From: Arbacia lixula
Taxonomy: Eukaryota > Echinodermata > Echinoidea > Arbacioida > Arbaciidae
Assembly (NCBI GenBank): GCA_963669155.1
Contig: OZ022591.1
Location: forward strand, 20,808,504 to 20,872,503
Length of the DNA stretch: 64,000 bases
Direction of reading: 5' to 3'
The notes under the pieces were generated by a model that saw only the letters and a program-made list of their open reading frames with translations, was not told where the DNA came from and did no database searches. A program made the translations under genes and the position numbers. Below are positions 1 to 64,000 of this stretch, one piece after another (the first letter of the stretch is position 1; every line of letters begins with the position of its first letter).

Positions 1-1710
1 CACCCTGACTTTGAAGTAATGAGTTCCTACCGATGATGACCACCCTGACTTTGAAGTACTGAGTTCCTACCAATGATGACCACCCTGACTTTGAAGTAAT
101 GAGTTCCTACCGATGATGACCACCCTGACTTTGAAGTAATGAGTTCCTACCGATGATGACCACCCTGACTTTGAAGTAATGAGTTCCTACCAATGATGAC
201 CACCCTGACTTTGAAGTAATGAGTTCCTACCAATGATGACCACCCTGACTATAAAGTAATGAGTTCCTACCAATGATGACCACCCTGACTTTGAAGTAAT
301 GAGTTCCTACCAATGATGACCACCCTGACTTTGAAGTAATGAGTTCCTACTGATAATGACCACCCTGACTATAAAGTAATGAGTTCCTACCGATGATGAC
401 CACCCTGACTTTGAAGTACTGAGTTCCTACTGATAATGACCACCCTGACTATAAAGTAATGAGTTCCTACCGATGATGACCACCCTGACTTTGAAGTAAT
501 GAGTTCCTACCAATGATGACCACCCTGACTTTGAAGTAATGAGTTCCTACCAATGATGACCACCCTGACTATAAAGTAATGAGTTCCTACCAATGATGAC
601 CACCCTGACTTTGAAGTAATGAGTTCCTACCAATAATGACCACCCTGACTTTGAAGTAATGAGTTCCTACTGATAATGACCACCCTGACTATAAAGTAAT
701 GAGTTCCTACCGATGATGACCACCCTGACTTTGAAGTACTGAGTTCCTACTGATAATGACCACCCTGACTATAAAGTAATGAGTTCCTACCGATGATGAC
801 CACCCTGACTTTGAAGTAATGAGTTCCTACTGATAATGACCACCCTGACTTTGAAGTAATGAGTTCCTACCAATGATGACCACCCTGACTTTGAAGTAAG
901 GAGTTCCTACCGATGATGACCACCCTGACTTTGAAGTAATGAGTTCCTACCAATGATGACCACCCTGACTTTGAAGTACTGAGTTCCTACCGATGATGAC
1001 CACCCTGACTTTGAAGTAATGAGTTCCTACCAATGATGACCACCCTGACTTTGAAGTAATGAGTTCCTAATGATAATGACCACCCTGACTTTGAAGTAAT
1101 GAGTTCCTACCGATGATGACCACCCTGACTATAAAGTAATGAGTTCCTACCGATGATGACCACCCTGACTTTGAAGTAATGAGTTCCTACCAATGATGAC
1201 CACCCTGACTTTGAAGTAATGAGTTCCTACTGATAATGACCACCCTGACTATAAAGTAATGAGTTCCTACCGATGATGACCACCCTGACTTTGAAGTACT
1301 GAGTTCCTACTGATAATGACCACCCTGACTATAAAGTAATGAGTTCCTACCGATGATGACCACCCTGACTTTGAAGTACTGAGTTCCTACCGATGATGAC
1401 CACCCTGACTTTGAAGTACTGAGTTCCTACCAATGATGACCACCCTGACTTTGAAGTAATGAGTTCCTACCAATGATGACCACCCTGATTTTGAAGTAAT
1501 GAGTTCCTACCGATGATGACCACCCTGACTTTGAAGTACTGAGTTCCTACCAATGATGACCACCCTGACTTTGAAGTAATGAGTTCCTACCGATGATGAC
1601 CACCCTGATTTTGAAGTAATGAGTTCCTACCGATGATGACCACCCTGACTTTGAAGTACTGAGTTCCTACCAATGATGACCACCCTGACTTTGAAGTAAT
1701 GAGTTCCTAC
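1..1710 (-). repeat. 40-bp minisatellite containing the SFT2D3 exon 1 splice donor
   Basis: About 43 head-to-tail copies of a 40-bp unit, continuing past the left edge. Read on the minus strand, each unit holds CATCATTG followed by GTAGGAACTC, which is the last 8 nt of the adjacent coding exon plus the start of its intron. Variants sit at fixed places (ttgaag/ataaag, agtaat/agtact, cgatgatg/caatgatg/tgataatg). Runs of variant dimers recur around 350-470, 670-790 and 1230-1360, giving an 80-bp higher-order pattern. Nearly every copy keeps the GTAGGA donor; the copy near 1069-1070 has lost the GT. Confidence 0.97.
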
Positions 1711-1980
1711 CAATGATGGGCACACAGGATCCTTCTCTGCCTGGCTGAACCAGCCGTTTGTCTCGCCGCTGTCTCGGCTTTCCTTGGGAGCCCCGGTCAG
1801 CAGATTCCCACTTGCCTCCACGTCCTGGTCGGAGCTTTTTGCGCTTGAAAACCACGATGTCATTGAAGTCATGGCACTGTGCGCGCCAGATGAAAGTGAA
1901 CTGGTCGACTGGGAGAGCGTCTTCGATGAGGAGGATGAGGAGGAGAGGTACGATTGAAGATCGGATTTTAGGTCAGCCAT
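1711..1980 (-). CDS. SFT2D3: SFT2D3-like vesicle transport protein, first coding exon (partial gene)
   Basis: The ATG at 1980-1978 opens a 90-codon exon beginning MADLKSDLQSYL, followed by a long Ser/Thr-rich stretch and ending WFSQAEKDPVCPSL. It stops at a phase-0 donor (TTG|GTAGGA, 1711/1710). The start resembles vertebrate SFT2D3 (MADL..QLQEYL), and CPSL resembles the LPSVTR segment just before the first membrane helix of the SFT2 family. SFT2 proteins are small tetraspanning Golgi proteins implicated in endosome-to-Golgi vesicle fusion. The four membrane helices would lie in exons beyond the left edge, so the assignment rests on the cytosolic N-terminus alone. The exon's donor is also the seed of the 40-bp array. 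The family call is by recognition, with moderate certainty; that this is a real exon is better supported. Confidence 0.62.
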
Positions 1981-3340
1981 GACTGCTTCTTAGATGATAT
2001 GGGGCTTCACAAATATTTACTACAGGATTATATCTATGCTTTTTGTTTTCAGGATTCTAAATTCCTTGTTGGCTAAACCTATGTTGTCTAAATCTTCCCA
2101 GATTATTTGTGAATGCGATGTCCTATTTTGAACTGAGGGTAATTCTGTTAACAATAGTCGCTCCAGCTGCTGTCAGATCCTACAGTATGTCAGTGGACTC
2201 AGCTCAGCTCATGAATCTCCTTTGCAGATTGGCTGGTACAAGGTTTCGTGTAGAATTCTGATTCTTTCAAGGATCAAACCGCTGGTTGCTTGAAGACACT
2301 TCCCTGCAACTGAAAATTATAAAAAGTAAAAAAAGAAATTGACATGAGCAACATAATAAATGCTAACAAGGGAGAACATTAATTCAATTGACCACTATGA
2401 ACAAATCAGGCAAGCCTAAGGTGTTTAATTTAAGAGAACTCATTAGTATTACTACATACTCTCTGCAAAAAGTGTAATTTGATTTGTAACTAATCATTTT
2501 CATTGCTGACGCTGAGCTCAAGCCCGTTAAAACCTCACACAATCATTCATGACAACACTTGACAGCTAGAATCCTAGATGATGTCATAATTTCATTCCCC
2601 GAGCATGGCAAAGTCTAAAAGTGCTATAAATCCATAAAGGCTTAAAGTATACAAATCTTGTGGAATGTAGTATTATTACAGTCAGTATTTGGTCCCGAGG
2701 TGAGGTGGAGGGCGTGGGGGTACTCGCCGGGTCTCCGACGGCGGGAGCTACCCGGGCGCGGCCAGGGTATGCAATGCATGCTAAGTCAGTGGGCTCAGTC
2801 ATTTGCCTACCTGCTGTCCGTTTGTTTTCGACAGGCAAAACTTTTCTCAACTTAATTAAGCATGCATGTATTGTAACTTACATTTTTAAATGTTGTCGCT
2901 TCCCCTATCTACTCCAGACCACGACATCAAGAACTGGCAAATCGTTAATTTGGTGAAGAAGATTCACTTGTCATCAGTCTTACCCGACTCAGCCGAAGTA
3001 TAATTTCGTTTTATTTTCGTTATTGACAACGATACGGTTATTCGTCCAAAACAAAGACGTAGACCACACAAAACACGCGACTCACTACGCTCATATATGC
3101 TATTTGAAATCGCTCACCAAGAAAAATACACATTTTACAAGCCTAAAATTATGATAAAGACGCCAAGGCAGCGGCACTTGCTGAGTGCGAGAGCAGAGCG
3201 AGCGCCGCGCTCCACAAGCTTTGGATGACGTGGTCGACGTTGAAGTGAACGAACGTTTTCGATGGATGCGATAAATGCGGGAAAGTTGAAACACCGAGGC
3301 GTTTTTTTTGGTAATGTTTGCTACCGCAACATTCCATTCC
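1981..3340. other. 5' flank of the SFT2D3-like gene; no further gene seen
   Basis: Non-coding in all frames, apart from short ORFs without recognisable sequence. The first few hundred bases should hold the SFT2D3-like 5' UTR and promoter. A moderately GC-rich patch lies at 2690-2770. No TATA box or other element could be assigned. Confidence 0.4.
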
Positions 3341-3344
3341 ATTC

Positions 3345-3620
3345 GATTCTCCCAATAATCAGAAATATTTGTGGTGGTGGTGGTGGTGATATTTCCATAT
3401 CCTCTAGAATATGTACCCCCCCATCAAAGAAAACAAAAAGATGCATGGGCAGGTTATAAGGGGGTTTAACCGCCCCCCCCCCCCCCCACACACACACTCG
3501 ATCCGTGCCTCGATCAGACCCGCGCACGTAAAATCTCACTCCTACACTCCTATATTTATAGTTGGTCTCTGATCTTGGCACTTACCGCCCCCCCCCCCCC
3601 CCTTTGGCAAAAAACTAGAT
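3345..3620. repeat. Low-complexity patch with GGT and poly-C runs
   Basis: A (GGT)n run near 3372-3390 and two C runs, 3472-3487 followed by a short CA run, and about 3588-3602. ORFs across it translate to Gly or Pro runs and are not genes. Confidence 0.8.
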
Positions 3621-4757
3621 CTGCCATTGTGTGTATCAAATCAAAAACGTCATTATGAAATCCCTTGATTTCCCACGGTCCTTTATCCCCATTTTTTTTC
3701 TTCCAAATGCAGTTTGAATGAATGAATCTGCCATGCTAGTGCACTCGTGCAGCGAATGATATAATGCATGGTACATGTAGCTATTCCTCCGTGAAGTTTG
3801 AAGTTTATTTATTATTTCTGACGACCCCTTTCGAGGTATGAGAAAAACATAGTAACTTGTACAATACAATTTATAATATACACATATGTTTTCTTTACGA
3901 AAAAGTAAAAGAAAAGAAAAGAAAACAGTTTCGAAATACATGTAGGCTACATGTACCAGTATTCACAGAAGGAATGTATAACATTGTATAACATAGGCCT
4001 ATAAGAAATTTTGAATCGGTATTGGCCGCTAAACTTGATCTTATATCCCTGCGTCTATGACTTTACCCCAACGAAAGCTTCAATTACGTATTATAATTGA
4101 GGATGAAAATGGCTTCCATTGGATTCTGCTTCAAAAGGCGAAATGTTGTCACCACCAGAGAAGATTTAGCAGCCCTGTAGCAGACCTATACTCCACCCAT
4201 TTAGGGTCATGTGTTGACTTAGTCATAATAAGTGCGATTCAAAACTTCCTTCTAAGCGTGAAGTAGAACTATTTTATCACGAAAAGGGGATTTCCCACTC
4301 TCGGGATGACCAGTAAAAATATTGACCTCTCCCTCTCTCCCTTACCTTTGCTAATGTAGATCTGCGCATTCATTGAAAATGGTATATTTCATTTTTGAAA
4401 CGACATCAAGTAAGACAAAAAAAAAACACTAATGTATACTAATTGGGGGTGTTCAAAACTTGTTTTGGGTGATGAGTTGTATGCAATTTAAATGCATGAC
4501 AGCTAAGGACTCAAAATTGTCCTTCCGTGGGAGGGGGTTCCCCTTCCCCCTTCACCTTGACCCCCCTCCCCCCCACCGCCCCCCTCCCGGTCCCCATAGA
4601 TCAAAGAACCTGTCTTCGCCACTGATATAGATTTATAGACACTGTTCTCATCGAACTGCTATTTTTTTTTATTGATTAATTGGATGTTGGGTGTTATATT
4701 TTGGTGATGCAAAAACTTCGAGACCACGTACTGCAGTTAATATAGCTCACCACGCAA
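3621..4757. other. Intergenic DNA, no gene seen
   Basis: AT-rich unique-looking sequence with a C-rich stretch at about 4540-4590. No conserved protein segment or RNA gene recognised. Confidence 0.4.
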
Positions 4758-4836
4758 ATGGTAATGATGGCGTTGATGATGGTGATGGTGGCGGTGGCGG
4801 GTGGTGGTGATGGTGATGATGATGATGATGATGAAT

Positions 4837-4907
<71 letters not shown>

Positions 4908-5010
4908 GTGATTATGATGACGATTAGGAGGAAGAGGAGAAGGAGGAGGAGGAGAAGGATATTGATGTTAATGGAGATGGTGATAGTGAGGATGGTGATG
5001 GTGATGCTTT
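4758..5010. repeat. GAT/ATG trinucleotide microsatellite
   Basis: Imperfect GAT repeats with a pure ATG tract at about 4838-4902, then degenerate GAG/GAT. It creates poly-Met and poly-Ile ORFs on the two strands; these are repeat artefacts. Confidence 0.95.
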
Positions 5011-5216
5011 TAATATTACACCTGTCGCCAGTGAAAATAGAAAAAAGTGATTTTCGCATAGTTATGCAGTACAGTATTGATTGAACGCGCGCTGAAGATC
5101 AAGATCGCGCGCGCAATATCTGATGAATGCATGCATGCAGTAAGCGAGGACTCCGGACGGACATATGCACAGGTCTAGCCAGCGCGCCTGGTATAACGCG
5201 CGCGCGCAAGATAAGT

Positions 5217-5470
5217 TAATTTACGGGCCGGTGTGGTAGGCGATTTGGTCTACCAGGCGATCTTGCCTGCGGGCGGATTCCCCTGGTGGAAATTCAGGCG
5301 AATATACCCGCCCTAAGACTGGGGACCAATTCGCCTACAAAAATCCGCCGGTTTTGCCCGCTCTCCTAAATTCTCCAGGCGATCTCGTCCCAGGTACACC
5401 CGAACCAATCGGAAAGCAGGATTGGGGGTGCACCGTGCATATTCTGATCACGAGAAGTTTAAAAAAGAGT
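5217..5470 (+). repeat. GC-rich dispersed element, copy A
   Basis: Contains repeated AGGCGAATNNGCC-like blocks, each partly palindromic. The same order of blocks, ending in the GCTTTCCCAATACACAC segment, occurs in reverse complement at 15955-16192 immediately upstream of PTPN11 exon 1. The two are copies of one dispersed element; its class is not recognised. Confidence 0.7.
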
Positions 5471-5477
5471 TTAAGCC

Positions 5478-5790
5478 GTTGATTCAAGAATATGGTCTAC
5501 GCTTTCCCAATACACACATACGTGTATGTAGTCTGAATTTCAGACCCTGGTCTAATTTTGGCTGTTGATTCAAGAATATCGTCTACGCTTCCCCAATACA
5601 CACATACGTGTATGTAGTCTGAATTTCAGACTCACGTCTGATTTTGGCTATTGATTCAAGAATATGGTCTACGCTTTCCCAATACATGTACACACATGTG
5701 TGTATGTAGTCTGAATTTCAGACCCACGTCTGATTTTGGCTGTTGATTCAAGAATATAGTCTATGCTTTCCCAATACAAACATAGGTGTT
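5478..5790 (+). repeat. Tandem repeat, four units of 86-92 bp
   Basis: Units start at about 5478, 5564, 5650 and 5742 with TTGATTCAAGAATA. Each contains a CCCAATACACACA/TACGTGTATGTAGTCTGAAT segment holding a short palindrome. The last unit is truncated. It belongs to the same element family as the adjacent GC-rich block. Confidence 0.9.
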
Positions 5791-6205
5791 TCGCTTTAAA
5801 ATACAGCTAAACATGAAGTCAAGACACGTACTTTCCCAGTTTTGCTGTAATGTCAGCGAGTCAAAGCAAAACACCTTCCTAATTTTGTTGTAATTACAGC
5901 TGAATGGAATTGCGCCGAGACTATGCTTTTTGAAAAATAAGAAAAGCTTTCATTATTGATGATGTTTGGTACATGCTCAGTTAGGGCAGATTTAAAAAAA
6001 AAACACTTGGCCGGGAACTCGTAAATTACCGAGATCCTACATAATAATGTTCTACATGTATTAATATGCACTTCATTATCACTGCATAGGTGGTAACACA
6101 CAATCAACCCAAAACAGATTAAGTTAAATAAAAATTAATATTTTCTATGTAAGTTTTTTGGTCTTGCATGATTTTTGTCATGTCAATTACTTGTGAATGT
6201 TTTCA
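5791..6205. other. Intergenic DNA, no gene seen
   Basis: AT-rich, non-coding, nothing recognised. Confidence 0.35.
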
Positions 6206-6420
6206 GTGGCGTAGACAGGTTCGTACACCTGGGGGGGGGGGGGGGGGGTGACTGGGCTGCCAGCAATCAAGAGGGCGCGAAAAGCTCCCGAGCGAGGGAG
6301 CGAAGCGACCGAGCCGGGGGGATGGTGTGGGAGGGGGGTGTCCCCCCCCCCCCCCCCCCCCACGGTAGGGAGCTTTTGCAATTTTGAACGTGAAATCGTG
6401 CAATCTGATGCATACTTAAT
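6206..6420 (+). repeat. G/C-run dispersed repeat fragment
   Basis: Begins CAGTGGCGTAGACAGG, then a G run of about 18, a segment rich in GAGCGAGGGAGCGAAGCGA, and a C run of about 20 at 6343-6361. The G and C runs face each other and could pair as a hairpin. It looks like a fragment of an interspersed element whose class I cannot name. A (CA)n tract follows at about 6450-6473. Confidence 0.6.
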
Positions 6421-7036
6421 GAGGTAAAATAACCACACAAGCGTTCACGCACACACACACACACACACACACATTGTACTACATGTACCCTTAAATGGAC
6501 AGTCATAGTTTCGACAAGATCTACACACCGTGGCATACGAGTACGGAATGGACTATTATTTTGCAGGGAGGGTTCGTAATGGATCCAGGGGTAGTTTGGG
6601 TACCATTTGGCTTGAAACAGAATTTTCTGCGGTTTAGTTTCTAGTACGGGAGCAAGAAGTTGGGGTGATTGGGGCTAACCAAGTCGTTAAAACCGGCATC
6701 AGTTTCATCATCATCTTTCACCCTCAACGGCACTTTCTTCTGGTTGAACTTCCGTAAGAACAGGCCTTTCTCCGACATTATCCGATTTTGATGTAGACGG
6801 CTGTTCGCCATCACGTTCTTCTTTCTCGTTATGCTTGAAAAAGAAGTAATCTTTGATGTTTTCTTCTTATTATGAGCCATCCTAGAATCCGAAAATCAAT
6901 TCACGCTGTGAATTATGTAAGGGACACACTCATATATAGTTTCCCCTTAAAAAGTTAAGGAAGACAAGGCCTCCAAGGACTCGCCACGTGTTTAGGTTTT
7001 CTAAACACAACAAAAAAAACACCCCCCCCCCCCCCC
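6421..7036. other. Intergenic DNA, no gene seen
   Basis: Contains the short CA microsatellite and AT-rich sequence. No coding or RNA gene recognised. Confidence 0.35.
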
Positions 7037-7715
7037 AAGCAAAATAGCATAACTTTTTATTGAAGCGGTTTTGGGAAAAATGATTTGCAGGATTGTTCCT
7101 TAACTCATTGACTAACCTCTGTGTGAAAATGACATTAATCCAATTAGTCATGCATGAGTGGGCAAATTTTAATGGCAAAAAATATAGACTTTTCAAAAGT
7201 CACAAGGGTAATTGTTTATGCCGTTTTAACAGTACATTTTGGCATTTCTTTATTTTCTGCGATTTTTAAAGTATATTCACTCAACCATGACACGGAAATG
7301 ACTTCAAATGTTTACATAAAAGGTCATGTTACATCTTTGTCAAAATTTCCAGTTCTATTTTTTCACAAAAATAAATGGTTTTTAAAAGTTTCAAACTCAA
7401 GATGGAGGAGTATTTTTTAAATGGGTTAAATGTCGGGATAGGTGTATCGAGAGATGGATGATAAACAATGAAAGGACATAAGTTATGCACCAGAGATGGA
7501 ATTCATCAAAAATTCATATGACAGAAACCCCAAATTACCCTTGTGACTTTTGAAAAGTTACATTTTTGCTTCTTAAATTTGCCCACTCACGCATGACTTA
7601 TTGGATATTTGGATTAATGTGATTTTCACACAAAAGTTAGTCAATAAGGTGAAAAACAATCCTGCCAAATTATTTTGCCCAAAACCTCTTTGATGAAAAG
7701 TAATGCTATTTTGCT
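7037..7715. mobile_element. Fold-back (MITE-like) element with arms of about 180 bp
   Basis: The left arm (7037-7212) starts AAGCAAAATAGCATAAC. The right arm (7532-7715) ends in its inverted match, ATGCTATTTTGCTT. Inner arm segments also pair (GTCACAAGGGTAATTG against CAAATTACCCTTGTGAC). The spacer is non-coding, so this is a non-autonomous inverted-repeat element. Confidence 0.8.
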
Positions 7716-8510
7716 TAGTGAGGACAAACCACAAGATAACCACAAAATACTTAAGATTTTCTCTTTTTACCGTCTGAATTGGCTTTCACTGTGTGAATGC
7801 GGCTAATACCAATAAACACGATTACAATAATGATGAGGATTAATATCATCATCATGATAATTATCATTATTAATATTATAATTTTTATCATCATTATTAT
7901 CATCATGAATTATTAAGTAAGCAAATATCATTGATATCATTGATATCAATCGTAGAAATCGATTGTAGACCCCTGAATCGATCGTAGACTCTACGATTGA
8001 TTACTTATCAATCGTAGAGCCACTAAACATTCACCTTGGCAGCTGTAAGTGTAATATTGGAGGAGAAAGAGGTTGAAGGATTGCAAGTACGAAGACAGAG
8101 GCGAGTATATGGATAGGATGAATCCTTTAATAAATTTTCGCACAAGGACATCCATAGAATAAACATGATACATGTATCAGTTAACATGAGGTGGACTGCA
8201 GGCTATTGGAGCCATTGGGCCTACAACAAGTACAACATATATAATAATCATAATATATGTAGGCCTATATGTCATACATTGTACTTACAGCGATAAAGCA
8301 ATTCATACAATTATCACACACATTGGTCCAATATCTGATAAAAAATTAAAACAAATAAAATAAAGAATAGGCAAAATACATGTATGTACGTTCATAATAG
8401 AACAATTAACATATGTTACATCTAAACTGAGTCTACAGCCAGCATATATAAGTTAGATATTTCTCATATTTTTTTTTTACAGTCAATTGCATGCACCTTA
8501 ATAACAAGCC
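7716..8510. other. Intergenic DNA with imperfect ATC/ATT repeats
   Basis: A run of TCATTATTATCATC-type imperfect repeats at about 7830-7915 and short GATATCATTGATATC palindromes near 7930. No gene. Confidence 0.5.
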
Positions 8511-9320
8511 TTAACCCTATCTAGCCCGGGGGGGGGGGGGGGGGGGGGGGGGGCAAAAACAGCCCCCCCCCCCCCCTCGACATTTTTTGCAATAAATTTG
8601 TAACGCGAAAAGATCGCGCCGCGACGTTTTATGACTTTTTTCCTTCAAGTCTCACGCAACTTTTAAGACCAAATTTGCGACGCGGGGGTACACGGTTCCA
8701 AAGTTACGTAACATTTTGTACGTGCATGTCAGACCCAAAATTGCTCAAAAACGTGATTTCATGTACAAATCCAATGCAAATTCTGTATCTGCCAAAATTC
8801 ATAAATGTATCATTATATCTATTTTTACTGATGAAAAACAATAGATTTCATGTTATTTATGACTGAAATAGTGTTGCCGACGATTTCCATGGAAAAAACA
8901 ATGAAAAACATAAAGTCGAAAAAACAAAGAAATACATAAGGAATTCAAAAAACAATAAAATACATAAGAAAAAATTTGATATTGCCATTCGTTTAAATCC
9001 TAATTTGATAATAATCATAAGAAGACTGTCTGGAGTGAAATCTCACAGTTTGGGGGCTATATTTAAAGATTTACAACCAAATTATGATTTTTATGCATTT
9101 AATTAGCATAATTAATTAATTAAAAATAAATTTGAATAATTTTGGTGCAATTGACAATTGAATTGTGGAGATTACGGCATCGGTGACGTACGTGCCAATT
9201 TTCGTCGCGATCGCGCGATCAACGGTCGAGATCTTAGGGGGGGCTGTTTTTGCCCCCCCCCCCCCCCCCCCCCCCCCCCGGGCTATGCGATTTCAAAATA
9301 GCCCGGGCTATATAGGGTTA
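8511..9320. mobile_element. Fold-back element with long poly-G/poly-C terminal arms
   Basis: The left end TTAACCCTATCTAGCCC leads into a run of 26 G (8528-8553), then GCAAAAACAGCC and a 14-C run. The right end is the inverted order: G run, GGCTGTTTTTGCC, a 27-C run (9253-9279), GGGCTAT, and ATAGGGTTA. The 0.66-kb core is AT-rich and non-coding. The termini are inverted repeats of about 60 bp dominated by homopolymer G/C. Confidence 0.8.
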
Positions 9321-10202
9321 ATACAATGACAGTTTGGTATAACTGACTGAATAAATGTAAAAATTATTACAGTGTTATATTATACCTAACTGCATTAAGA
9401 AGATGCAGTGGCATCTGCCATATTTACGATCAAATATTCAAATTTCCAGACCAAGGAGACAGCCTCGGTTCTTTTTGAGCCATTTGTTGACTTTATCTAT
9501 GATGGACCATGTATTACTATGGGATCTGGCAATTGTCACTTTCTCCTTGATCAATGTCTTACATTCAGTCTTGTGTGATTAATGTAAGCTATGTACTCTA
9601 CAACCTTGTCCAGCTATTTGGAGAGCACCATGAGGGGACTGACGAAGCAGTAATGAACAATGATGAAGATGGACAAGAGCAGAGAGCAGTGCTGGAAACA
9701 GACATCAATGTGCTGCAAGGGAGAATGTTATTGCTGTACAGTATTTGAATGATGAACTTTTTCATATAAATTTCATGCTCACACAGGACTTCCACTTGTA
9801 TTAGCACATACGTCCACTGTTCATTTTCCATTGGACGTAAATTTAAACGTAAAAACAAGTCACACTGAGGGAGCACTTTATATATATTTTAAAACTACTT
9901 CCGCAGTCAAACAGAAAGCTGTATCTGTCGATGATTGAAATATTTAAAACTAGACTGCCACGCAGTCAATAAATGTGCCTCCGCCTCTTTGCTAGCTCTA
10001 TTTAGATTTCTTCTCAGAAAATGTGTATATTTGGTGGGCAATGACCATTGAATTCCTATGTGAAATGAAAATATCATATACTGTATTTCCATGTTTAGCC
10101 AAGTTTGGCAATGTTCATTGACCTTTGACCTCTGACCTTTCAGGAATTTCACCAAAAATGACACCAGTCTATCCCCAAGAAGTGATCCATCTGTGCACCA
10201 TG
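9321..10202. other. Intergenic DNA, no gene established
   Basis: A 64-codon ORF at 9554-9748 has an acidic mid-section but no recognised domain and no convincing splice sites, so it is not called. GACCTTTGACC-type motifs appear at about 10116-10140. Confidence 0.35.
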
Positions 10203-10727: not shown

Positions 10728-10779
10728 GAGAATTGCATCCTTGGATCTGGATTTAATGTGAAAAAAAGTCAATTGGGGG

Positions 10780-16258: not shown

Positions 16259-48135
<31,877 letters not shown>

Positions 48136-52367: not shown

Positions 52368-52525
52368 TGGGCTCTGTTGCATTAAATTTACCTTAGATTG
52401 TAACTTTGCTACCAATGGCAATTTCTATGGAAACCTTCAATTTGATTGGCTATCAAGTGATGTTACTGTGGTAGTTACTAATGATGAAACAGTTACCATT
52501 AATGGTAACTTTTATGTAACAGGAC
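52368..52525. mobile_element. MITE family 6, copy
   Basis: GGGCTCTGTTGCATTAAATT ... ACCATTAATGGTAACTTTTA, with the GGAAACCTTCAATTTGATTGGCT segment shared by the other copies. Confidence 0.8.
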
Positions 52526-53082
52526 TATGATGAACTACTTTTTACTTATAGTGTCAGTGGCAGCTTTGCTGAAGCCATTTGAATAAAACACAATTCATAT
52601 TTTTTTCATAATTTCAGCAAACTTCCTCATGAGTGTAGAAATGTGTAGCAAATTTGTTGGCATGTTTGTTAAAATGCCATGCGCAAGATTAATTTTGAGA
52701 AGAGGATCGAAATCACATCTCCTTTATGGTGATGGAATTCCAAAGTCTGATGTCATAGGGGCATGTTCTCATTTCACTGATTGTAGTCATGAAAGCTTAG
52801 TCAGCACACCTACAGACAAGTGAGTGTACAGTGTATGTAAACATGCTGATTTCTAAACTCACTGCTAGTTGACATTAGAAAAACTCATGTTTATGTTGAT
52901 GCTGATCTTATTTGAAGAAAAAGAAGGAACTTGGCTTTAAAAAAAACTTAGATAGTGTTTAAAGAAATAACAGTAGTGTTAATGCCATGAATTGACTATC
53001 TACAAGTGTGGTAATAGTATTTATACATATATATGTATATCAATGATTGTAGTGAAAAAAATGGTTGATAGAATAATCTTTC

Positions 53083-53088
53083 AATAAA
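53083..53088 (+). terminator. PTPN11: Candidate polyadenylation signal AATAAA
   Basis: AATAAA in a T-rich context about 4.95 kb after the stop codon, the second canonical hexamer on the sense strand. Confidence 0.3.
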
Positions 53089-53110
53089 ATCACCATCACA
53101 TTTTTTATCT

Positions 53111-53974
53111 AATATGCACAGATATCTACATTATACATATACGCTCGGGCTTTATTGCTTTTCCCAAGGAACGGTGCGACAGTTTTATTTCATTTTTGAA
53201 GGAATCTATTTTGATGAGATTAAATCATAAAACTGCATTTTGTAGAAATCATAACTTTTGTATCTTTGGTCAATGCAAGGAGTACAGTGGTTTTTTTTGT
53301 CATGTGGATATTAAATATATGTATTACAACACAACTTAGATTTGTATTGAGGTGTATACCTAAAATGTGATGCTATATTTTTGTATATTGAAATCTTGGA
53401 CTTTTTGTGTACAATATTGTTTGTGCTTTGTTGAAACATTCTGAAATGTTTTGTCTTGTATATTACGGATCTAAATTGTAAGTGATGAAGTGAACCAAAC
53501 TCCTCAATATGTTTAAATGACAAATGCATCTAGGACAGACAACTTTTTTTCCTCCCAAGTGATGTATTTTTTTAGAGTTTAATATATTCCATAAGTATTT
53601 TGAGAAAGTATTGTATGCATTTATATGTAGAATTGATGATGTCATTTTTTAAAGTCCACATAGGTTGCCATTGATGTTTTACTCAGTTCAACTTTCCCAA
53701 ATTTCCTTACAGAAAAGCTTCTTTTTTTGTTGATTATTGTTTAGGTTTGCTAAATGATAAAGAAAAAGAATTTAAAGGATGAAAGTCATATTACGCTTGC
53801 ACCCAATTAAATGGAAATTGTTTTATTAATCTCATGTGTGTTGTCCTTTATTTCTCTAGCTTTGACCAGCTTGAAATTCCATAAGGCGAAGGCCAGATTG
53901 GATACCCATGTATTACCTCATTTTGAATCCCAGAGTTGTGTAGACACACTGCCGATAATGATATACATGTACCT
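53111..53974. other. Intergenic DNA, no gene seen
   Basis: AT-rich, nothing recognised. Confidence 0.3.
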
Positions 53975-54295
53975 GGGCCGTCTCATAAAGCTGTTTGTAA
54001 GTAACGCACAACTTTACGCACGACTAGTGACCTGTTCTTGTGCTAATTTAAATACCCAAATTGGTTCCTGTTTTTGATACATGTATAATGGGAGTGAATT
54101 TTGTACAATCAAATTTTAAAAAATTATAAACTTTGTATTCACTGAGATGCTTGTTAACAACAAGAATTTTGATCTACAAAGATCTAATATCAATTTTAGC
54201 TGCTGGGAATCAAAATGATTGAGAATCTGATTTGGCACCTAAGAACAGGTCACCAGTCATGCGTAATTTATGAACAGCTTTTTGAAACAGGCCCT
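53975..54295. mobile_element. MITE family 5, copy 2
   Basis: GGGCCGTCTCATAAAGCTGT ... AACAGCTTTTTGAAACAGGCCC; internal sequence collinear with 37262-37571. Confidence 0.83.
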
Positions 54296-54519
54296 AAAGT
54301 TGCAGAGACTGCAGTAGTTTGGATCACTAAGCACCAGACAAAGAAGTGTGATAAGTTTACAACAAAACTGAGATTTTGAGTTTGAGCAAAACCAGACCAT
54401 ATGTAGTTGATAGAGAAGTTGAAAGCATGTGAACTGGTGACATTTACAGCTGTGTTGCAAGGCTGGGAGACCATCATTGAACTCACAAGTAACACACAAA
54501 TATCAACATACACAGCTTT

Positions 54520-54531
54520 AAACGCACACGC

Positions 54532-54569
<38 letters not shown>

Positions 54570-54690
54570 GCACGTATGCACACACACACACGTGCACACA
54601 CACACACGTACACACTCACGCACGCACGCGCACACACACACACACACACATACACACACACACACACATACACACACACACAGATTCAAC
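54520..54690. repeat. CA microsatellite with CG interruptions
   Basis: (CA)n interrupted by GCACGCACG and TACACA units. It produces His-Thr and Val-Cys ORFs that are not genes. Confidence 0.97.
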
Positions 54691-55061
54691 CTGTCATTTT
54701 AAATACACTTCACAACAAATTTCTTGCATGCTTTGCCTCTCTTTTTCCAACTTTCATGTCCAATAACATCTCATATATGAGCTTACATAATAAAATAAAT
54801 CCAAATCAAATGAATATGGAATTTTCTTGTGGATTAATATCCACATATATTTTGCTCATATCCTTGTAAACGCATTCACTGTAAATATCTCTTGTGGAAT
54901 GTATGGTAAAAACTGGCTTTTTCAACAAAAGGGGACAAGACTTAGGTGGAAGGATAGCCTTTGAGTAGCTGGAACTGTTTCATAACGCACTGCAATTGAT
55001 CGTAAGATTTATTCTAAGCTTGTACTTGTGCCACAAAACAGTTGCAATAGAAATTAAACAT

Positions 55062-55213
55062 GGCCCCATTGCATAAAACTTTACATTGATGGTAACTTCT
55101 ATCAAACTACCGTAGTAAAATCGCTCAACAGCCAATCAAAGTCAAGGTTTCCAATAGAAGTTGCCATTAGAAGCAAACTAACCATCGATTGTAACTTTTA
55201 TGCAAAAGGGCCC
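55062..55213. mobile_element. MITE family 6, copy
   Basis: GGCCCCATTGCATAAAACTT ... AACTTTTATGCAAAAGGGCCC inverted ends with TTGATGGTAACTTCTATC inside. Confidence 0.85.
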
Positions 55214-57100
55214 ATAACGGTGATTGCATATTGATACAAATGCTGTGGATCTATCTTTGTAACTCGACAATTGATTGCAAAGATAAGAGTCACAGTGGTG
55301 TTCTGTGATACAGATTGTGGAAATTAAAGAAGTCAAATCATACCAATCAATTGAAAATCTAAAAAGAAAAATACTTCAAACAAAACTTGATTTATCAAAT
55401 TATTAAATCCACTCAACCATAGTCTGGTTACCTCATCTTGTCTTCACAATTTACCATAGGTTCTTTTGAATGCAAAATTATTTAAAATATCACTCAAAAG
55501 TTCAAACATTTCTCACAAATCTGCAAGTTCAATTTCATTATAAAAAGTATAAAGTACTTCCCAAAGTTCTAGATGAAGCTAGGCATAAATTAAACACCAA
55601 CTTCCCCCCCCCCCACACACACACACTCAAGAATCTCAAATATTGTTATCTCTTGTGTTCTGTCAGCAAGTACTTCTTCACAACATGCGATAACAAAAAT
55701 TGTGAATACAAAATTATAGGCTTATAAAATACAGACACAAGCTACACATCAATCATATATAAACTCTCCACACAAGTATATGATATATAAAAGCAAGTGC
55801 ATAATTGACATATAAATACTGCATAATACTCTTTCAGAAAGAAAATACATGAAAAACACACTACAAGTGAATAATATTGCTTTGGATATACAGACATATT
55901 TTGCAAAATGGCAGGACGCATTAGATTTCAGGAAAACCTTTTGGACGGATAAATACATCATACCGAAAACTGGAAAGAGAGGAACATATATGTACTAACA
56001 CTAATCTAAATGGATAATTCTGTTACTTCATTTTTTAATGAATTTTGTAATTTGCTTTGGAAATGCTCAAATAAAACCATACATTTAGTGTGAGGTTTTC
56101 TGTAATGGTTTGATTAAGTACTATTTAGTATATGAAATTATGTTTGTCAATTTATTTAGTGATTATATAGTCAGTTGAAAACAAAAGCAATAAACCACTT
56201 GGAATACTCGTCTAATATATGTTGTAAATATTAGAAATAAAGGTAATGTTTAATGCAATAAGGTCAACGAATATAAGACATTATGCAATTTATCAGCACT
56301 TGATATTGTTTACTACAATATCACTATTCCCCGATTTAAGAATAAACTTGCATTCGATGCAATTAGCTGATTAAGAATTATAGAGTGTGAATTTATATTT
56401 CCAAAAATGTCTATATGCTCAATGTGAGACAAAAAGATATCACTCGTAAAATTGCCATAAATTTGAAAATAAAAGTTGACGTTGAATTTGATTATGTTTA
56501 TGAATATATACACTCAGGACTGTGTTCAATAACGAAGCTTTGTCATCATTCTGGTATGTTATATTCACAATAATCCCATCTATATTCTGTACTCCAAGAT
56601 AGTTTTACCTCGTATTATGTTTGTCAAGCGTTTGTTAATTTTCTCTTGTAAATGTACTTTGTAAATTATGCCCTGTATTTTGTTGATAAACATGTATCCT
56701 GGGCTCTGTGTTACCTTGTATTCTATATATCTATATATTTGAATAAAAGGATTTAAAAAAAAAATGACTACATGTACAACAAACTGAAATATGATGTGGA
56801 GAAAATATATCACAATTCATGTATGATATGATTTCACAAATGGGTGTGTACAGATCATACGTCTTTATGCAAACGTTAAAGCATTAAAGCCTCAAGTGAA
56901 GAGGCTTGTTGAGTACAGAATCAGAATATCTATATGAATTGTCACTACCATGGAAACAGGCAATGGGATATGAGCATTGAAGTTGTTGTTGCTATGGTAG
57001 TTCCAACTAATGGTACATTGCTATGTTCAAAGAACTATAATGCCATATTGTCCTGAGAACTAAGTGATATCAACATCATCAAAATGCTGAATACAAATCT
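55214..57100. other. Intergenic DNA, no gene seen
   Basis: Very AT-rich. No coding segment, RNA gene or repeat recognised. Confidence 0.35.
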
Positions 57101-57566
57101 TAAAGGGAAAGTCCACACTGAAGTTATGTCGATTTTAATGAAAGCAACATATTAGTGAAAGTTTGATGAAACTCAGTCATAGGATAAGAAAGTTATTAAA
57201 GTTATGATTTTGTGACTTCACATGCGAGATGCTCTCCCATATATTGTAGATTATATTTTGAAAAATGTTAATTTTCAAAAATTGTACATGCTACCTGTGC
57301 ATTTCATTTATCATTGGACATATGTTTTTACAAACATACTTCTATGATAACGATTGATTCCTTCATCGAAATTCAGTAAAAGGGGAATTCATGGGGAAAA
57401 TAGTGCACAACATACAGTACTGGTATAATATGGGAGAGCATCTCACATGTGACATCGCAAAATCAAAACTTGAAAAATCATAACTTTCATATCCTTTGAA
57501 GGATTTTTGTCAAACCTTCACTGTTTCTTTCACGTGTTTGCTTTTATTAAAACTTCAGGGTGGGCA
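57101..57566. mobile_element. MITE family 4, copy 2
   Basis: Fold-back from TAAAGGGAAAGTCCACACTG to CTTCAGGGTGGGC. The arms include GAGATGCTCTCCCATAT with ATATGGGAGAGCATCTC and AAGTTATGATTTTGTGA with its inverse. Confidence 0.85.
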
Positions 57567-58129
57567 ATACGAAAGACATAACAAGGAAACAATGATGTCA
57601 CCATATATCACAACCGACATAAAAAATTGATTTGTTCATTAAGTACTACAAAAATTTTCTCTGATATTTCCCACAAATGATGTTTAGTCTGTGTACAACA
57701 ACCAATTATATGCTCTGAAAATATATATTTTTTTTGCAGTCAGAGGGTTAGTGAATTTTATTTATCTAGAAAATAAGGTAACATTTTTATATTCCAAAAT
57801 ATACAAACATGATGTTGAAAAGAGGTAAAAAAAAAAAAAAGAGGCCATTAATGAATGGAAGGCAAACTCCATATTCTCACTCCATACCATTACATACAGT
57901 AAAAACTGTCACAAACATATTTCACTCAAAAATTCAAGCATGCCATCAAATGATATTTACATTTGATATAACAAGAGAAATGAAACTGCGTTCGTTTTAC
58001 TGGGATGCCTCTACCCTCCCATGCAGACACTGAAGTATTGCTGTAATCTCTAAAAGTAAAAATTCATTGTCCAATGCCTGGAAATCTTAATATGAAATAC
58101 AAATCAATCGTCGATATGTAACAAGTTAC
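57567..58129. other. Intergenic DNA, no gene seen
   Basis: Nothing recognised. Confidence 0.3.
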
Positions 58130-58490
58130 CCCATAACCAGGAAACTTGAGCAATTTGACCTTGACCAATTAAATCTGACCTTAACCTGTGACCTTTGACC
58201 ATTAGCTATGACATCTGCCCCAAATTAGAATCAATTAATTGTCCTGTCATCATTGCATCAAGTTTGGCTGAATATTTGTTGAGTTATGAAATTAAAAAAA
58301 AATCCTTCAGAATTTGACCTTGACCTATGACCTTTGACATATCTGACTGGACCAGAATCTAATCAGTAAATTGTCCTGTCATATTCAACTTCAATGAAAT
58401 TTGGTTATTTCTTGAGTAAAAGTTATCTGTAAAGACGGACGGACAACGACCCAGAAACATACCATCCATCCACTTGGTGGCGGAGGCATA
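58130..58490. repeat. Dispersed repeat rich in TGACCTTTGAC motifs
   Basis: TGACCTTGACC, TGACCTTTGACCATTAGC and TGACCTATGACCTTTGAC repeat across the block, ending GACGGACGGACAACGACC ... GGTGGCGGAGGCATAA. Related to 10780-10990. Confidence 0.65.
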
Positions 58491-58509
58491 AAAACCTCTT
58501 GTGATAATT

Positions 58510-58645
58510 CACACACATGATGTGCATCTACACAAATAGATGGCAAACACACAATGCAGCACGGTGAAGGGAATATATTTACACCTGAACATATATGTTT
58601 GTACCATACCACATACAGTAGATGGTACCCTTAACCATATATATA
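58510..58645 (+). repeat. Direct duplication flanking a Tc1-like MITE, left copy
   Basis: ACATGATGTGCATCTACACA, AATAGATGGCAA, ACAATGCAGCAC, TTTACACCTGAA and AACCATATATAT recur in the same order at 59332-59480. Confidence 0.85.
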
Positions 58646-58647
58646 TA

Positions 58648-59285
58648 CAGTTGAGGCCAGAAGTTTACATGCACCCATGAAATTCAAAGAAAAGTTGACA
58701 CTTGCCAAGCATCATCAAATTTACTGTATCTTATAAAATATTTGAGCTTTCATGACGAATTTGATATTAAACAAATGAGTATGTCATACCCCTTTATCAT
58801 ATTGCTTTTGTCATCAGGAGCTGAAAAATATTTAGGAGTCATTTTTCTCCCAAAATTTTCATATTTTAGACAAATTAAAAATAAAAACTTGACAAAAACA
58901 TTTCATATTTGTGCTAGTTACTTCTCAACACAAACATTTCAGATTACACTTTTTTGTTCAGTGGTGACATATAAAAAAATGTAATATAAATCATAGATTT
59001 CACATTTATATATTTCTATTAAACAATGTTTAGAAATATAATAACACACAATAGACTACATTTGGCACGAATATTACTTTCTTTCTTCAAAGAAAATTCC
59101 ACCTGAATTATAATTTAATCACAACAGCATTCCAATCATGTGAAAGAACTTAATACGCTCTTTCATTTGATACCAAATTCGTCATGGTAGTATTTATATT
59201 TCTGAAGATATAGTAAATTTTTCGATGTTTGGGAAGCGAACAAATTTCACTGAATTCCTTGGGTGTATGCAAACTTTTGGCCTAT
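58648..59285. mobile_element. Non-autonomous Tc1-like element
   Basis: The left end TACAGTTGAGGCCAGAAGTT/TACATGCACCC is typical of Tc1-family terminal repeats. The right end GGGTGTATGCAAACTTTTGGCC is its inverse with a decayed tip. A second inverted pair (CATGACGAATTTGATAT; ATACCAAATTCGTCATG) lies about 100 bp in from each end. No transposase. Confidence 0.85.
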
Positions 59286-59331
59286 GATAACATTTATAAG
59301 AGTCAATACAAACTGTACTGTCTGTTAGAGT

Positions 59332-59480
59332 AAACATGATGTGTATCTGTACAAATAGATGGCAACTAGACAATGCAGCACAGTGAATTGTAATACTGTA
59401 TATTTACACCTGAATACATCTGTTTGTACCATGTACAGTAGATGTACCTTGTAATGGTACCATAAACCATATATATGAAA
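59332..59480 (+). repeat. Direct duplication flanking a Tc1-like MITE, right copy
   Basis: Homologous to 58510-58645. The two copies bracket the element at about 820-bp spacing. Confidence 0.85.
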
Positions 59481-59810
59481 ACACTTCTTAAAGTTAATAC
59501 AAACTGTGTCTGTGACGTGCTGCGATATGCAATTCAAAAACATAGTAGACTACACACTTATGGCTGCCTTGCTTACCGATGCTCTCTAAGCATAGCATGA
59601 ATACATCAACATACATCATGGCTAATGCACCTATAGTCTCAATGTTCCTATAGGAAGAAGCCTACAGTCCTTACATGTAAGCCCATTCAGGATCAAGTGC
59701 CATGGATGTGTGGTCTGGTGCTGTAACTGTTGATATCAACGATTAAAAATAACAAAAGGTGCATCACATGAAAGAGCACATTTCTGCATAAGATGAATCC
59801 ATTTGGGGCA

Positions 59811-59947
59811 TTAAAGGTCCCCTGTCATCAAAATGTATTTCAACTTATGTTGATGCAACATAATATGTACATAACAAAATCACTAACTGTTCAATAGAAA
59901 TATGTGTCCTAAATTTTAAAACAATTTTGATGACAGGGGCCCTTTAA
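59811..59947. mobile_element. Small fold-back MITE (137 bp)
   Basis: TTAAAGGTCCCCTGTCATCA ... TGATGACAGGGGCCCTTTAA; arms of about 30 bp or more. Confidence 0.88.
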
Positions 59948-61009
59948 GTGATACATATTACCTTTGTAATGATTTTTCAAAGCAAAATAAGGGTTAAATG
60001 ATTACTAAATCTTGAAATTGGCAACGTGCTGAAAAGTTTGAAATACCACTTTTTGACTTCAAATTGGCATGATTATTGCTCTAACTTGAATTTTTTGGTA
60101 TTTTGCTAATTTATAATGACATTTACATTCCGCTTCCTAATAAAAATCAAATTAAAAAAAAATGTTCCCAATTTAAGAGTCTAGTAGTAATCAGTTCTGT
60201 TCTAAAAAGGCCTCCATCTCGAATGAGTTAGAAATTTTTTTTCACTGGTTTCCACAAATTCAGAGCAAGGATCCATCAATAGAAAGCATCATTAACTGCC
60301 AAAGTCTCAAAATGTCTCTGATATGTAATTGACAGTGACGCTGTAACTCTACAACGTTACCAGAAAATTGCACAGATAAATATCTTCAATGAGCAGAGGG
60401 TATGAGAAACAAGTGCATGAGATGTGAACACAAGCACTAATCAGAGATTAAATGTACAATTATCTTGACAATTATTTACGATTATTTACAGTGTAAAAAT
60501 GATGTTGTGAACTACCAAGGCATATTTTCAACTGCAGCTTTTCTTCAGGTTTTCTGAAAGATCTTTGGATTCAATAAATCATGACACACACACAAACACA
60601 CACGCATACACACAGCATTAAATATCTGCAAATTAAAAAGAAAAAAAGTAAATCAAGGCTCTAAAAATCTCCACATATCAAAGAAAGCCGCTCATACTGG
60701 TTCTCATTTCCTTAAAATGCCTTTTTTTTATAATTTGAAAACAAATTAGTTTGTATTGTTATGTGAATGATTTCATACTGTGAAATGAAGACAAAAATGA
60801 AAAAGGCTTGTCAATAAGTCCCCTACAAATTAATAGATCTGCTCTTCTCATTGATAGAATTGCCTGGAATTTAAAGAAAGATAACTTTGATCTCAGGATT
60901 CTGTGAGCATTTGTTTAAAATCAAATAGACACTGAAATTAAACAGTACCGTGGGCCATAGTCTTACCCATTACTACGCCTCACATTAAACCTATCACAGA
61001 TAGCCCAAC
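59948..61009 (-). other. TTLL10: Probable TTLL10-like 3' UTR / downstream flank
   Basis: No coding sequence and no AATAAA on the minus strand within this interval, so the end of the transcript could not be placed. Confidence 0.35.
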
Positions 61010-61605
61010 TCAAAGCCGCAGAGAGCCCAGGTTAGAAATGGCGTCTTTGACCGCATCCTTCTCTCGCTCCTCCTCCTTTCTTCGCTCCTCCTCCTTCTTT
61101 AGCTCCTCCTTCTTTTTCCGGTGCTGGGCTTCGCGTGCAGCCAGCACAGCGCCCCCTTGCTGCAGGCGGATGACAGGCGTGGTCAGCGGGGTCACATTCT
61201 TCCTCAGGCTCAGCTTCACCACGGGCAGCTGCCGGCCGGCCGGGGGCGACTCCTCCGGGGGCCTCGACGACATCGTCCCCCTCGTCGTGATGGAGGTCGT
61301 CGACCCTGACTGGCGCGGTGAGCGGGTCTTCCCGAGGGTGGTCGTTGATCGCTGCGGACTGAGGGATTTCCTGGGTAGGGATCGTGCCCCATTTGGTGTG
61401 GAGGAGGAGGTGGAGGTGGAGGTGGTGGTGGTGGTGGAGGTAGGAGAGACCGGCGTGGCGCTCATAGTCTTGCGGGTCGGTGGTCGCATGCTCGGTACGG
61501 TGCCACCAGAGGTCTCATCATACAGCACCTGGTAGGAACGCCGCTGTGACAGTGGGGTGACTGGCTGACGGCGCTTGATCTTATCAGAGATCTCCACTAC
61601 CACAT
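61010..61605 (-). CDS. TTLL10: TTLL10-like terminal coding exon
   Basis: The acceptor CTCCCTAG is preceded on the minus strand by a run of about 18 C acting as the pyrimidine tract. Begins mid-codon (Asp: G|AT) with DVVVEISDKIKRRQ, then low-complexity Ser/Thr-Pro and the charged coiled coil; TGA at 61012-61010. Confidence 0.85.
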
Positions 61606-64000
61606 CTAGGGAGTGAGAGGATGGCGGGGGGGGGGGGGGGGGAGAGAAGGGGAAAAATAAAGTTTTACTCTTTAAACCCAGGGGGGCTTTGTATGGAAGT
61701 TTTCAAATCTCAAAGCGATATCTTATTACTTTTCAGAATGAAAGCGCAGAATGTTGGGGGGGGGGGGGACATTATGGGCCCCCCGGCCTAATTAATGTTA
61801 TTCCCCTCAGATAACTAATGTTCACTTAAAGGTGATATTCATAGAAAATCCAAAAATATGAAGATATTCATCTACAGAAAGCTTATAAGCCACACAATGA
61901 GCTCGGATGACATTCAAACAATATATCCCTTCCCCAAAAGGGAAATTAGGGTGAAAACAATCACCGTATTCTCGGGGACAAATTTGCCCTACTGTCATCC
62001 GAAACGGCCTTTAGGTCTGACGTAAGAAACGGGAGGCGTTAACATGCCAATCCGCAGCTTCTTTTCCGCCAGAAGCATCATGCATTGTTAATAATATTGT
62101 GATGGCAGTTGCTAGTGGATTAACAGGTGTGATACACAATGGTCATTGTGAAGCGTATCCCGGCTGCGACGTACACACAATGCCACTTTCCCTGAGGCGA
62201 TTTCGTAGGTCAGGAAGAGAGTCAATTTAGCAAAATTTGACTTTCATTAAACACAAAACTGAACACTTTCGTGGCATGTTAGCTGCGTACATTGCTTTAA
62301 TAACTCATTCAATTATAAAATTTCCTATGAATATCACCTTTAATCCCCAGTAGGCAGATCTGAACACAACCATAGAATCTCAAACTACAGTCCAGTACTT
62401 ACCCAGCGTTTCTTGGACCATGCCTGGTAGGATCTAAACACAACCATAGAATCTCAAACTACAGTCCAGTACTTACCCAGCGTTTCTTGGACCATGCCTG
62501 GTAGGATCTAAACACAACCATAGAATCTCAAACTACAGTCCAGTACTTACCCAGCGTTTCTTGGACCATGCCTGGTAGGATCTAAACACAACCATAGAAT
62601 CTCAAACTACAGTCCAGTACTTACCCAGCGTTTCTTGGACCATGCCTGGTAGGATCTAAACACAACCATAGAATCTCAAACTACAGTCCAGTACTTACCC
62701 AGTGTTTCTTGGACCATGCCTGGTAGGATGTCTTTGAGTACCTCACAGTTTGTATGCAGCGCTGGGTTCACATTGATCTCCAGGAGCCAGATCTGAACAC
62801 AACCATAGAGAGAACAAAGTAAATAAAAATAACTCTCTCATTACTATTGGCATGAAGATGTGTAGTAAGCCATTGGGGTTTTTCAAGTCTGGTAATATAA
62901 GGGTTAACTCTCTCATTGTCATTGGCACGAAGCTGTGTAGTAAGCTAATAAGGTGTTCGAGGCCTGGTAATGTAAGGGCTAACTCTCTCATTACCATTGG
63001 CATGAAGATGTGTAGTAAGCCAATGGAGTTTTCAAGTCTGGTAATATAAGGGTTAACTCTCTCATCACCATTGGCATGAAGATGTGTAGTAAGCCAGTGG
63101 GGTTTTCAAGGCCTGGTAATGTAAGGGTTTACTCTCTCACTACCATTGGAATGAAGATGTGTAGTACGTCAACAGGGTTTTCAAGGCCTGGTAATGTAAC
63201 GGTTAACTCTCTCATTTCCATTGGCATGAGGATGTGTAGTAAGCCAATGGGGTTTTCAAGTCTGGTAATGTAGGGTTGACTCTCTCATTAACATTGGCAT
63301 GAATATGTGTAGTAAGCCAGTGGGGTTTTCAAGGCCTGGTAATGTAAGGGTTTACTCTCTCACTACCATTGGCATGAAGATGTGTAGTAAGCCAATGGGG
63401 TTTTCAAGGCCTGATAATGTATGGGTTAAAAACAGGGGGTCCCATGAGAACTCATGAAACTCAACAGGAATCAGCAGTATTCCCTCACAATAAGGTGTAT
63501 GAAATTTCACAGTCATAGCTTTCCAAACATTTTCAGGAAAAGTGAAGAACTATCAGCAAGCATAGTCTACATTCACAACTGTATTGTCCCTCTCAGCGTG
63601 CGATGGGAACAATTGCTCCCATTGAACGCATGCACCGTGCAGCGGACCATAGCATACAGCGGTCACCGGTCTCTAGGCTAAAGGTTTCAGACAAATCAGC
63701 CCCAAATCTCCTCAAAATCTACTGATCGATATAATTTCACACAGTTTCCAGCTCTATCATTGGGAGGGAAGTTCTAATACAGTATTTTCTTGAATTTTCT
63801 GTGTTTAAAAAAAAAAAATAATAATTTCTTTGACCTGCAAAAGGGAGACAATGTCATCAAAAGAGGAGTAAACATAGAGTGTGAAGGTGAGAGGACGAAC
63901 ATAAAGCTACGAGAAGAATGAAGGGTAAGAAAGACAAGTACGGTAACTGACCTTCATGTCTGTGTCCAGGAGGAAGTCAAAGCCTAGAAGGTCAAAGTAG
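61010..64000 (-). CDS. TTLL10: TTLL10-like tubulin polyglycylase, last three exons (partial)
   Basis: Spliced as 64000-63952, 62792-62699, 61605-61010 (TGA). The frame runs YFDLLGFDFLLDTDMK, then IWLLEINVNPALHTNCEVLK, then DILPGMVQETLDVVVEISDK. This is the signature end of the tubulin-tyrosine-ligase-like ATP-grasp domain and fits TTLL10 best (FDL.G.DFL.D...K, WLLE.N.NPALHTNCEVLK). The acidic-Asn pair in LLEINVNP matches the Mg-ATP site. TTLL10 in many animals elongates polyglycine chains on tubulin in cilia. The tail of about 190 residues is Ser/Thr/Pro-rich and basic, ending in a charged predicted coiled coil (KKKEELKKEEERRKEEE) and NLGSLRL. The upstream catalytic domain lies beyond the right edge. 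Confidence 0.85.
61826..62342. mobile_element. Fold-back-ended MITE, 517 bp, in a TTLL10 intron
   Basis: Termini TTAAAGGTGATATTCATAGA and CCTATGAATATCACCTTTAA; non-coding core. Confidence 0.85.
62357..62726 (-). repeat. 74-bp x5 array spanning a TTLL10 exon end and its splice sites
   Basis: Units start (GATC) at 62357, 62431, 62505, 62579 and 62653, exactly 74 bp apart. On the minus strand each of the four downstream units reads TGTGTTTAG|ATCCTACCAGG...ACGCTGG|GTAAGT: a 31-nt mini-exon with intact acceptor and donor (62625-62655, 62551-62581, 62477-62507, 62403-62433). The fifth unit is the real exon's 3' end. Confidence 0.95.
62699..62792 (-). CDS. TTLL10: TTLL10-like penultimate exon (ATP-grasp core)
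   Basis: 94 nt, phase 0 in and phase 1 out. IWLLEINVNPALHTNCEVLK then DILPGMVQETL; acceptor TGTGTTCAG, donor CTGG|GTAAGT. Confidence 0.92.
62847..63430 (+). repeat. 75-bp satellite array B, in a TTLL10 intron
   Basis: Eight units (about 62847, 62921, 62996, 63070, 63145, 63219, 63293, 63367) of the same family as 27325-27932, in the same plus-strand orientation. Confidence 0.95.
63424..63860 (+). repeat. Dispersed repeat flanking satellite array B
   Basis: Starts GGGTTAAAAACAGGGGGTCC and carries the CATTGAACGCATGCACCG block shared with 49382-49720, then the GATCGATATAATTTCACAC and TTTGACCTGCAAAAGGG blocks shared with 27130-27320. Confidence 0.8.
63952..64000 (-). CDS. TTLL10: TTLL10-like exon (truncated by the window edge)
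   Basis: YFDLLGFDFLLDTDMK in phase 0, donor AAG|GTCAGT at 63952/63951; continues past the right edge. Confidence 0.88.

Follow-up and report, generated by a model that had tools for sequence, protein, structure and literature searches.

A window of 64,000 nucleotides from the sea urchin Arbacia lixula (contig OZ022591.1, assembly GCA_963669155.1, forward-strand positions 20,808,504 to 20,872,503) contains tandem arrays lying across exon-intron junctions of genes identified as SFT2D3, PTPN11 and TTLL10, which raises the question of whether some process in this genome is aimed at splice junctions. The initial annotation took the anchoring to exceed chance, and offered either a duplication process preferring junctions or survival of those duplications in which one copy still splices. 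The arrays themselves are real, as five clear tandem arrays span splice junctions in the window. At a probability of roughly 0.85, however, they are locally born minisatellites tolerated near exons, with no process aimed at splice junctions, and the apparent anchoring thus requires no special mechanism.

Tandem arrays spanning splice junctions

The arrays and duplicated segments across junctions are as follows.
1..1718, minus strand: 40-bp tandem array across the SFT2D3 exon 1 donor (Tandem Repeats Finder)
28071..28774, plus strand: 42/57-bp array across the PTPN11 exon 2 donor, 15 copies of ..TCAG/GTGAG (the slash marks the exon/intron boundary), real donor included
35134..35454, plus strand: 170-bp repeat, 1.9 copies, across the PTPN11 exon 3 donor (tandem-repeat call)
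39642..39714, plus strand: duplicate of the donor region of PTPN11 exon 6 at 81% identity, GT retained
62357..62729, minus strand: 74-bp array over the TTLL-family exon tail and donor, 5 copies

The SFT2D3 array extends 753 bp beyond the left edge of the window (to L010:9248 in the left flank), reaching a total of about 2.47 kb and about 62 copies. Its 40-bp unit carries the exon/intron boundary TCATCATTG/GTAGGAACTC, and GT is kept in 41 of the 42 full in-register copies of the window, the real donor included. At PTPN11 exon 2 the CAG/GTGAG copies are spaced 42 bp and then 57 bp apart, and the dinucleotide is kept in 15/15. The donor of exon 3 has one additional copy (119 bp, 92% identity, offset 170 bp, GT retained), and that of exon 6 likewise a single one (74 bp at 81%, offset 87 bp). 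The 74-bp TTLL unit consists of an acceptor-like TTTAG, then 31 nt of exon tail and then a GTAAGT donor; a copy of the acceptor of this exon occurs 433 bp further on, and both exon ends pass the junction test defined below. A 75-bp satellite (TAACTCTCTCATTACCATTGGCATGAAG...) is present at 27327-27920 and 62830-63429, in two unrelated introns 35 kb apart, and both sites lie near a junction array.

The donors of SFT2D3 exon 1 and PTPN11 exons 2 and 6 and the TTLL exon with both sites had thus been recognized correctly in the initial annotation. For PTPN11 exon 3 the donor copy stands, while on the acceptor side only a decayed copy exists, with AA in place of AG at the aligned acceptor position. 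The acceptor of exon 5, also proposed, has decayed copies too, and those before both exons fail the strict as well as the gapped junction test.
34836..34921, plus strand: decayed copy of the 5' part of PTPN11 exon 3, upstream of the exon, 81% to exon 3
37641..37747, plus strand: decayed copies of the 5' part of PTPN11 exon 5, 75-78% identity
37757..38513, plus strand: intronic array of 147/155-bp units containing TCAA runs, following the decayed copies of exon 5 on their downstream side (tandem-repeat call)
Exon 14, named as a further possible case, has no junction copy in a local copy comparison, and the direct repeat of intron 13, seen by eye, ends short of the exon 14 acceptor. The share of affected exons, given as about a third, comes to 3/14 under the strict test for the mapped exons of PTPN11, and to 4/14 once decayed copies are admitted.

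The units of exon 2, SFT2D3 and TTLL were searched against the 607-Mb assembly of 590 contigs, with completeness not guaranteed. All 14 genome matches of the exon 2 unit fall at the PTPN11 exon 2 locus, all 41 listed matches of the SFT2D3 unit at the SFT2D3 locus, and all 3 matches of the TTLL unit at the TTLL locus. The occurrence of the three units at their own locus alone fits birth in place. A dispersed, introner-like element inserting at splice sites has next to no probability, as similar copies scattered over many loci were not found for these units, each of which holds exon sequence of its own gene, and nothing in favour of such an element was found here. An origin of the copy runs in the assembly, which may have made or inflated them, is extremely unlikely: runs such as the 2.5-kb SFT2D3 array are difficult to assemble, but the copies differ by substitutions, the two-copy cases are only 81-92% identical, and several of the 590 contigs are tens of megabases long.

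Junctions compared with the intron background

In the strict junction test, a position counts as spanned when the 40-base segment with that position at its centre is found again at 75% or better no more than 700 bases away, simple repeats being excluded; a gapped version was run beside it. By the strict test 3/13 donors and 0/14 acceptors of PTPN11 are spanned, i.e. 3/27 junctions, versus 10.0% of 17,723 intron bases, while the gapped test gives 3/27 versus 13.4%. PTPN11 junctions are therefore struck about as often as its introns generally. When 26 random sites are drawn from the PTPN11 introns, the mean number of matches is 1.8, and three or more are obtained in 25% of draws.

A control was taken from the dynein heavy chain genes of the same genome, whose loci were picked by the AAA1 domain (81 matches) and blind to repeats. 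Introns were set by spliced alignment with reference proteins from echinoids and other animals (identity around the splice: median 86%, lowest 39%), and across 14 loci (165 kb) the 171 pairs of neighbouring exons yielded 153 accepted introns with 306 junctions. The first sample had 2/178 junctions spanned versus 8.7% of intron bases; after two genes were extended, the total is 10/306 (3.3%; 95% interval 1.6-5.9%) versus 11.7% of 97,004 intron bases. Two random sites per control intron yield a mean of 22.8/306 and a minimum of 12 across 2000 draws, and the gapped test gives 17/306 junctions versus 14.3% of intron bases.

The distance profile of the control, at a resolution of about 20 bases, bears no mark at the junction (n = 153 on each side). 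At intron position +80, 10 donor and 9 acceptor sides are covered; the figures are 5 and 5 at the junction itself, then 6 and 5 at exon position -20, and both are 0 at exon position -60. Coverage thus declines toward the exon and reaches no further than a few tens of bases into it. The arrays of the control, ten in all, are of the same kind as those of the window. In one gene family of this sea urchin, about 3% is the estimate of splice junctions lying inside tandem arrays.

A rival reading is a hotspot at junctions, where a process tied to splice sites (e.g. transcription-coupled breaks or pausing) would preferentially duplicate the DNA. Its support is the window itself, where 6 of 32 junctions (27 of PTPN11, 4 of TTLL and 1 of SFT2D3) are in arrays versus 10/306 in the control. 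Against it, control junctions are less covered than introns and show no peak by distance, the spanned ones are split evenly into 5 donors and 5 acceptors, and PTPN11 junctions equal their own intron background, which makes the hotspot very unlikely. The claim of anchoring beyond chance is accordingly not borne out in PTPN11 or in the control, and the proposed preference of duplication for junctions is contradicted in the dynein genes.

Several observations nevertheless weigh against the reading as locally born, tolerated minisatellites. The window is richer than the control whether junctions (6/32; p = 0.002) or arrays (5/32; p = 0.008) are counted, with p = 0.08 for PTPN11 alone; as the window was chosen for its arrays, this excess is not readable as genome-wide. 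Four further TTLL junctions to the right of the window, placed by eye, are free of arrays (0/4), and their addition gives 6/36. Five or more matches among the 26 random PTPN11 intron sites occur in only 1.6% of draws, five being the count reached when both decayed cases are let in while decayed intron copies stay out. On the control side, 18 of the 171 neighbouring exon pairs were dropped, coverage at exon position -10 on the donor side (7/153) is slightly higher than at the junction, and the sample is one gene family with 9 of its 10 spanned junctions in two genes. These two genes have 9/150 spanned junctions versus 1/156 in the other twelve loci (p = 0.009), and one of them already had a match before being extended.

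Formation and persistence of the arrays

On the favoured reading as ordinary minisatellites, short tandem duplications are widespread in the introns of the animal, probably through slippage or unequal exchange. Some of their breakpoints lie within an exon, a few tens of bases from its edge, and the unit then carries that edge together with the splice site. Such an array may be tolerated when the exon-proximal copy, probably the one used in splicing, gives the correct messenger RNA (mRNA) and all other copies are intronic, while arrays extending deeper into the coding sequence would be lost, presumably by selection. Copy number would later grow and the copies homogenize as in any minisatellite.

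The PTPN11 frame is intact over its 14 mapped exons. In each of the five donor arrays of the window, reading on through the real donor runs into an in-frame stop. The stop follows immediately in PTPN11 exon 2, and a few to about 30 codons later in SFT2D3, the TTLL exon and PTPN11 exons 3 and 6. Survival of junction duplications by way of a copy that still splices normally would be consistent with the intact frame and with these stops.

The repeated sites may alternatively be kept for a function, as decoys or as recursive or dual-specific splice sites. At PTPN11 exon 2 CAG/GTGAG is kept in every one of the 15 copies, each of which scores as donor and as acceptor, and 7 of the 10 control arrays keep the dinucleotide in all or nearly all further copies; for instance, AG is kept in all three additional 92-bp copies of one dynein acceptor. 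Retention in the further copies of the control ranges from 0/5 to 7/7, however, and two control arrays, both at C10:23704811-23739380 (minus strand), have no dinucleotide at the aligned position in any further copy. GT is changed to AT in 5/5 further copies of the donor at joined-stretch position 10151, and AG is altered in 6/6 of the acceptor at position 6906, where AG is found one base on in 4/6. As homogenization alone explains retention, and use of an inner exon 2 donor leads to an immediate in-frame stop, a functional role is as improbable as a hotspot.

Relation to mirages and intron gain

The initial annotation knew of no named class for such arrays, but they have been named mirages in amphioxus (PMC3087553). 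Mirages are tandem minisatellite-like duplications of exon-intron boundaries which occur at both the 5' and the 3' boundaries of introns, many, though not all, of their copies keep AG or GT, their copy number is unstable between haplotypes, and reverse transcription PCR suggests that they leave splicing undisturbed (PMC3087553).

By structural features, the window arrays appear to be mirages in a host group outside the published cases found. The window genes have tandem minisatellite-like copies across the exon-intron boundary, both intron ends are involved (the control has five arrays at donors and five at acceptors, and the TTLL exon is affected on either side), and many but not all copies keep AG or GT (SFT2D3 41/42; exon 2 15/15; control 0/5 to 7/7). 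The sea-urchin and amphioxus cases are alike in units of tens to about 160 bp comprising the exon edge and the splice site, in the presence of both donor and acceptor sides, and in the position of the real site at the exon edge. They differ in the host, here a sea urchin, in the roughly 62 copies of the SFT2D3 array, and in the TTLL unit with both sites round a 31-nt exon tail. The original report of mirages is said to be that of Canestro et al. in 2002. The literature searches made turned up no report of mirages in sea urchins, which is weak evidence of absence, and a search on mirages themselves gave only the amphioxus globin paper. The present arrays extend the phenomenon from amphioxus to a sea urchin.

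Introns are reportedly also gained by tandem duplication, as in the potato RdRp gene, for which mode of gain Zhuo (2007) and Gao and Lynch (2009) are said to be cited. The arrays resemble such gains in that a splice-competent site is duplicated in tandem, whereas here the edges of existing introns are duplicated and no new intron is shown. With their stock of spare splice sites, the arrays lend themselves naturally to studies of intron gain and of how splice sites are chosen.

Putative dual-specific sites at PTPN11 exon 2

Scored with a matrix built from the 153 mapped control introns, the exon 2 copies rank well as donors (15/15 at the 75th-80th percentile of the 153 mapped donors) and as acceptors (15/15 at the 54th-74th percentile; relative to 5311 intronic AG sites, these scores exceed the 99th percentile). 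The reason lies in the final 17 coding bases of the exon, a pyrimidine-rich stretch with CAG at its end. The tandem AG/GT core thus fits the 5' and the 3' site by score in all 15 copies, and exon 2 appears to be bordered by a tandem array of dual-specific splice-site-like units, an unusual case.

Dual-specific splice sites in tandem repeats are described for human UBC and VCX3A (PMC10809524). The PTPN11 exon 2 unit resembles those sites as a tandem AG/GT fitting donor and acceptor by score. The UBC sites bound coding ubiquitin units and are used, whereas the further copies of exon 2 are intronic and only predicted to be sites. It is conceivable, though unlikely, that the array constitutes 15 working dual-specific sites (zero-length exons) by which intron 2 would be shortened stepwise with the mRNA unchanged, and that such mirages would form a silent reservoir from which recursive splicing and new introns could arise in echinoderms.

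Genes and other repeats of the window

The exons discussed above are located as follows.
1711..1980, minus strand: SFT2D3-like exon 1, coding from ATG, 90 codons (translation; the first intron base of the donor is 1710)
27965..28087, plus strand: PTPN11 exon 2, N-SH2 (intact open reading frame; Pfam SH2)
34995..35189, plus strand: PTPN11 exon 3 (intact translation)
38635..38751, plus strand: PTPN11 exon 5 (intact translation)
39452..39568, plus strand: PTPN11 exon 6 (intact translation)
62699..62792, minus strand: TTLL-family exon, running from base 62792 to base 62699 (Pfam TTL; junctions)

PTPN11 exons 2 to 15 were mapped by intact translation with exon-proximal splice sites, and exon 1 was not located in this mapping. 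The product has two SH2 domains and a tyrosine phosphatase domain (Pfam), and shares 90% identity over its full length with the protein of Diadema setosum, 96% across 45% of its length with a Strongylocentrotus purpuratus model, 76% with two starfish and 60% with amphioxus. The names SFT2D3 and TTLL10 are taken from the initial annotation, and support here is at the family level. SFT2D3-like exon 1 has no Pfam match on its own; a Got1/Sft2 match is obtained once an exon further downstream, in the left flank, is joined to it by eye. The TTLL-family exon matches Pfam TTL over 31 amino acids (E = 2.8e-4), barely over the cut-off (20.7 versus 20.1 bits).

Several other repeats were noted. A 480-bp GACT microsatellite (41891-42371) stops about 40 bases short of the PTPN11 exon 9 acceptor. 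PTPN11 intron 2 contains a relic of a Tc1/mariner-type transposase (30430-31320, minus strand), in which a 209-amino-acid segment (30430-31059) matches HTH_Tnp_Tc3_2 and DDE_3 and is split by a stop from an open stretch of 86 amino acids upstream. A recurring sequence resembling a miniature inverted-repeat transposable element (CCCTATTGCATAAAAGTTACCATTGATGG...) was seen by eye in several introns and flanks, at about 43362-43650, 44510-44570, 52380-52530 and 55060-55210, and at about 3040-3190 of the right flank (L011).

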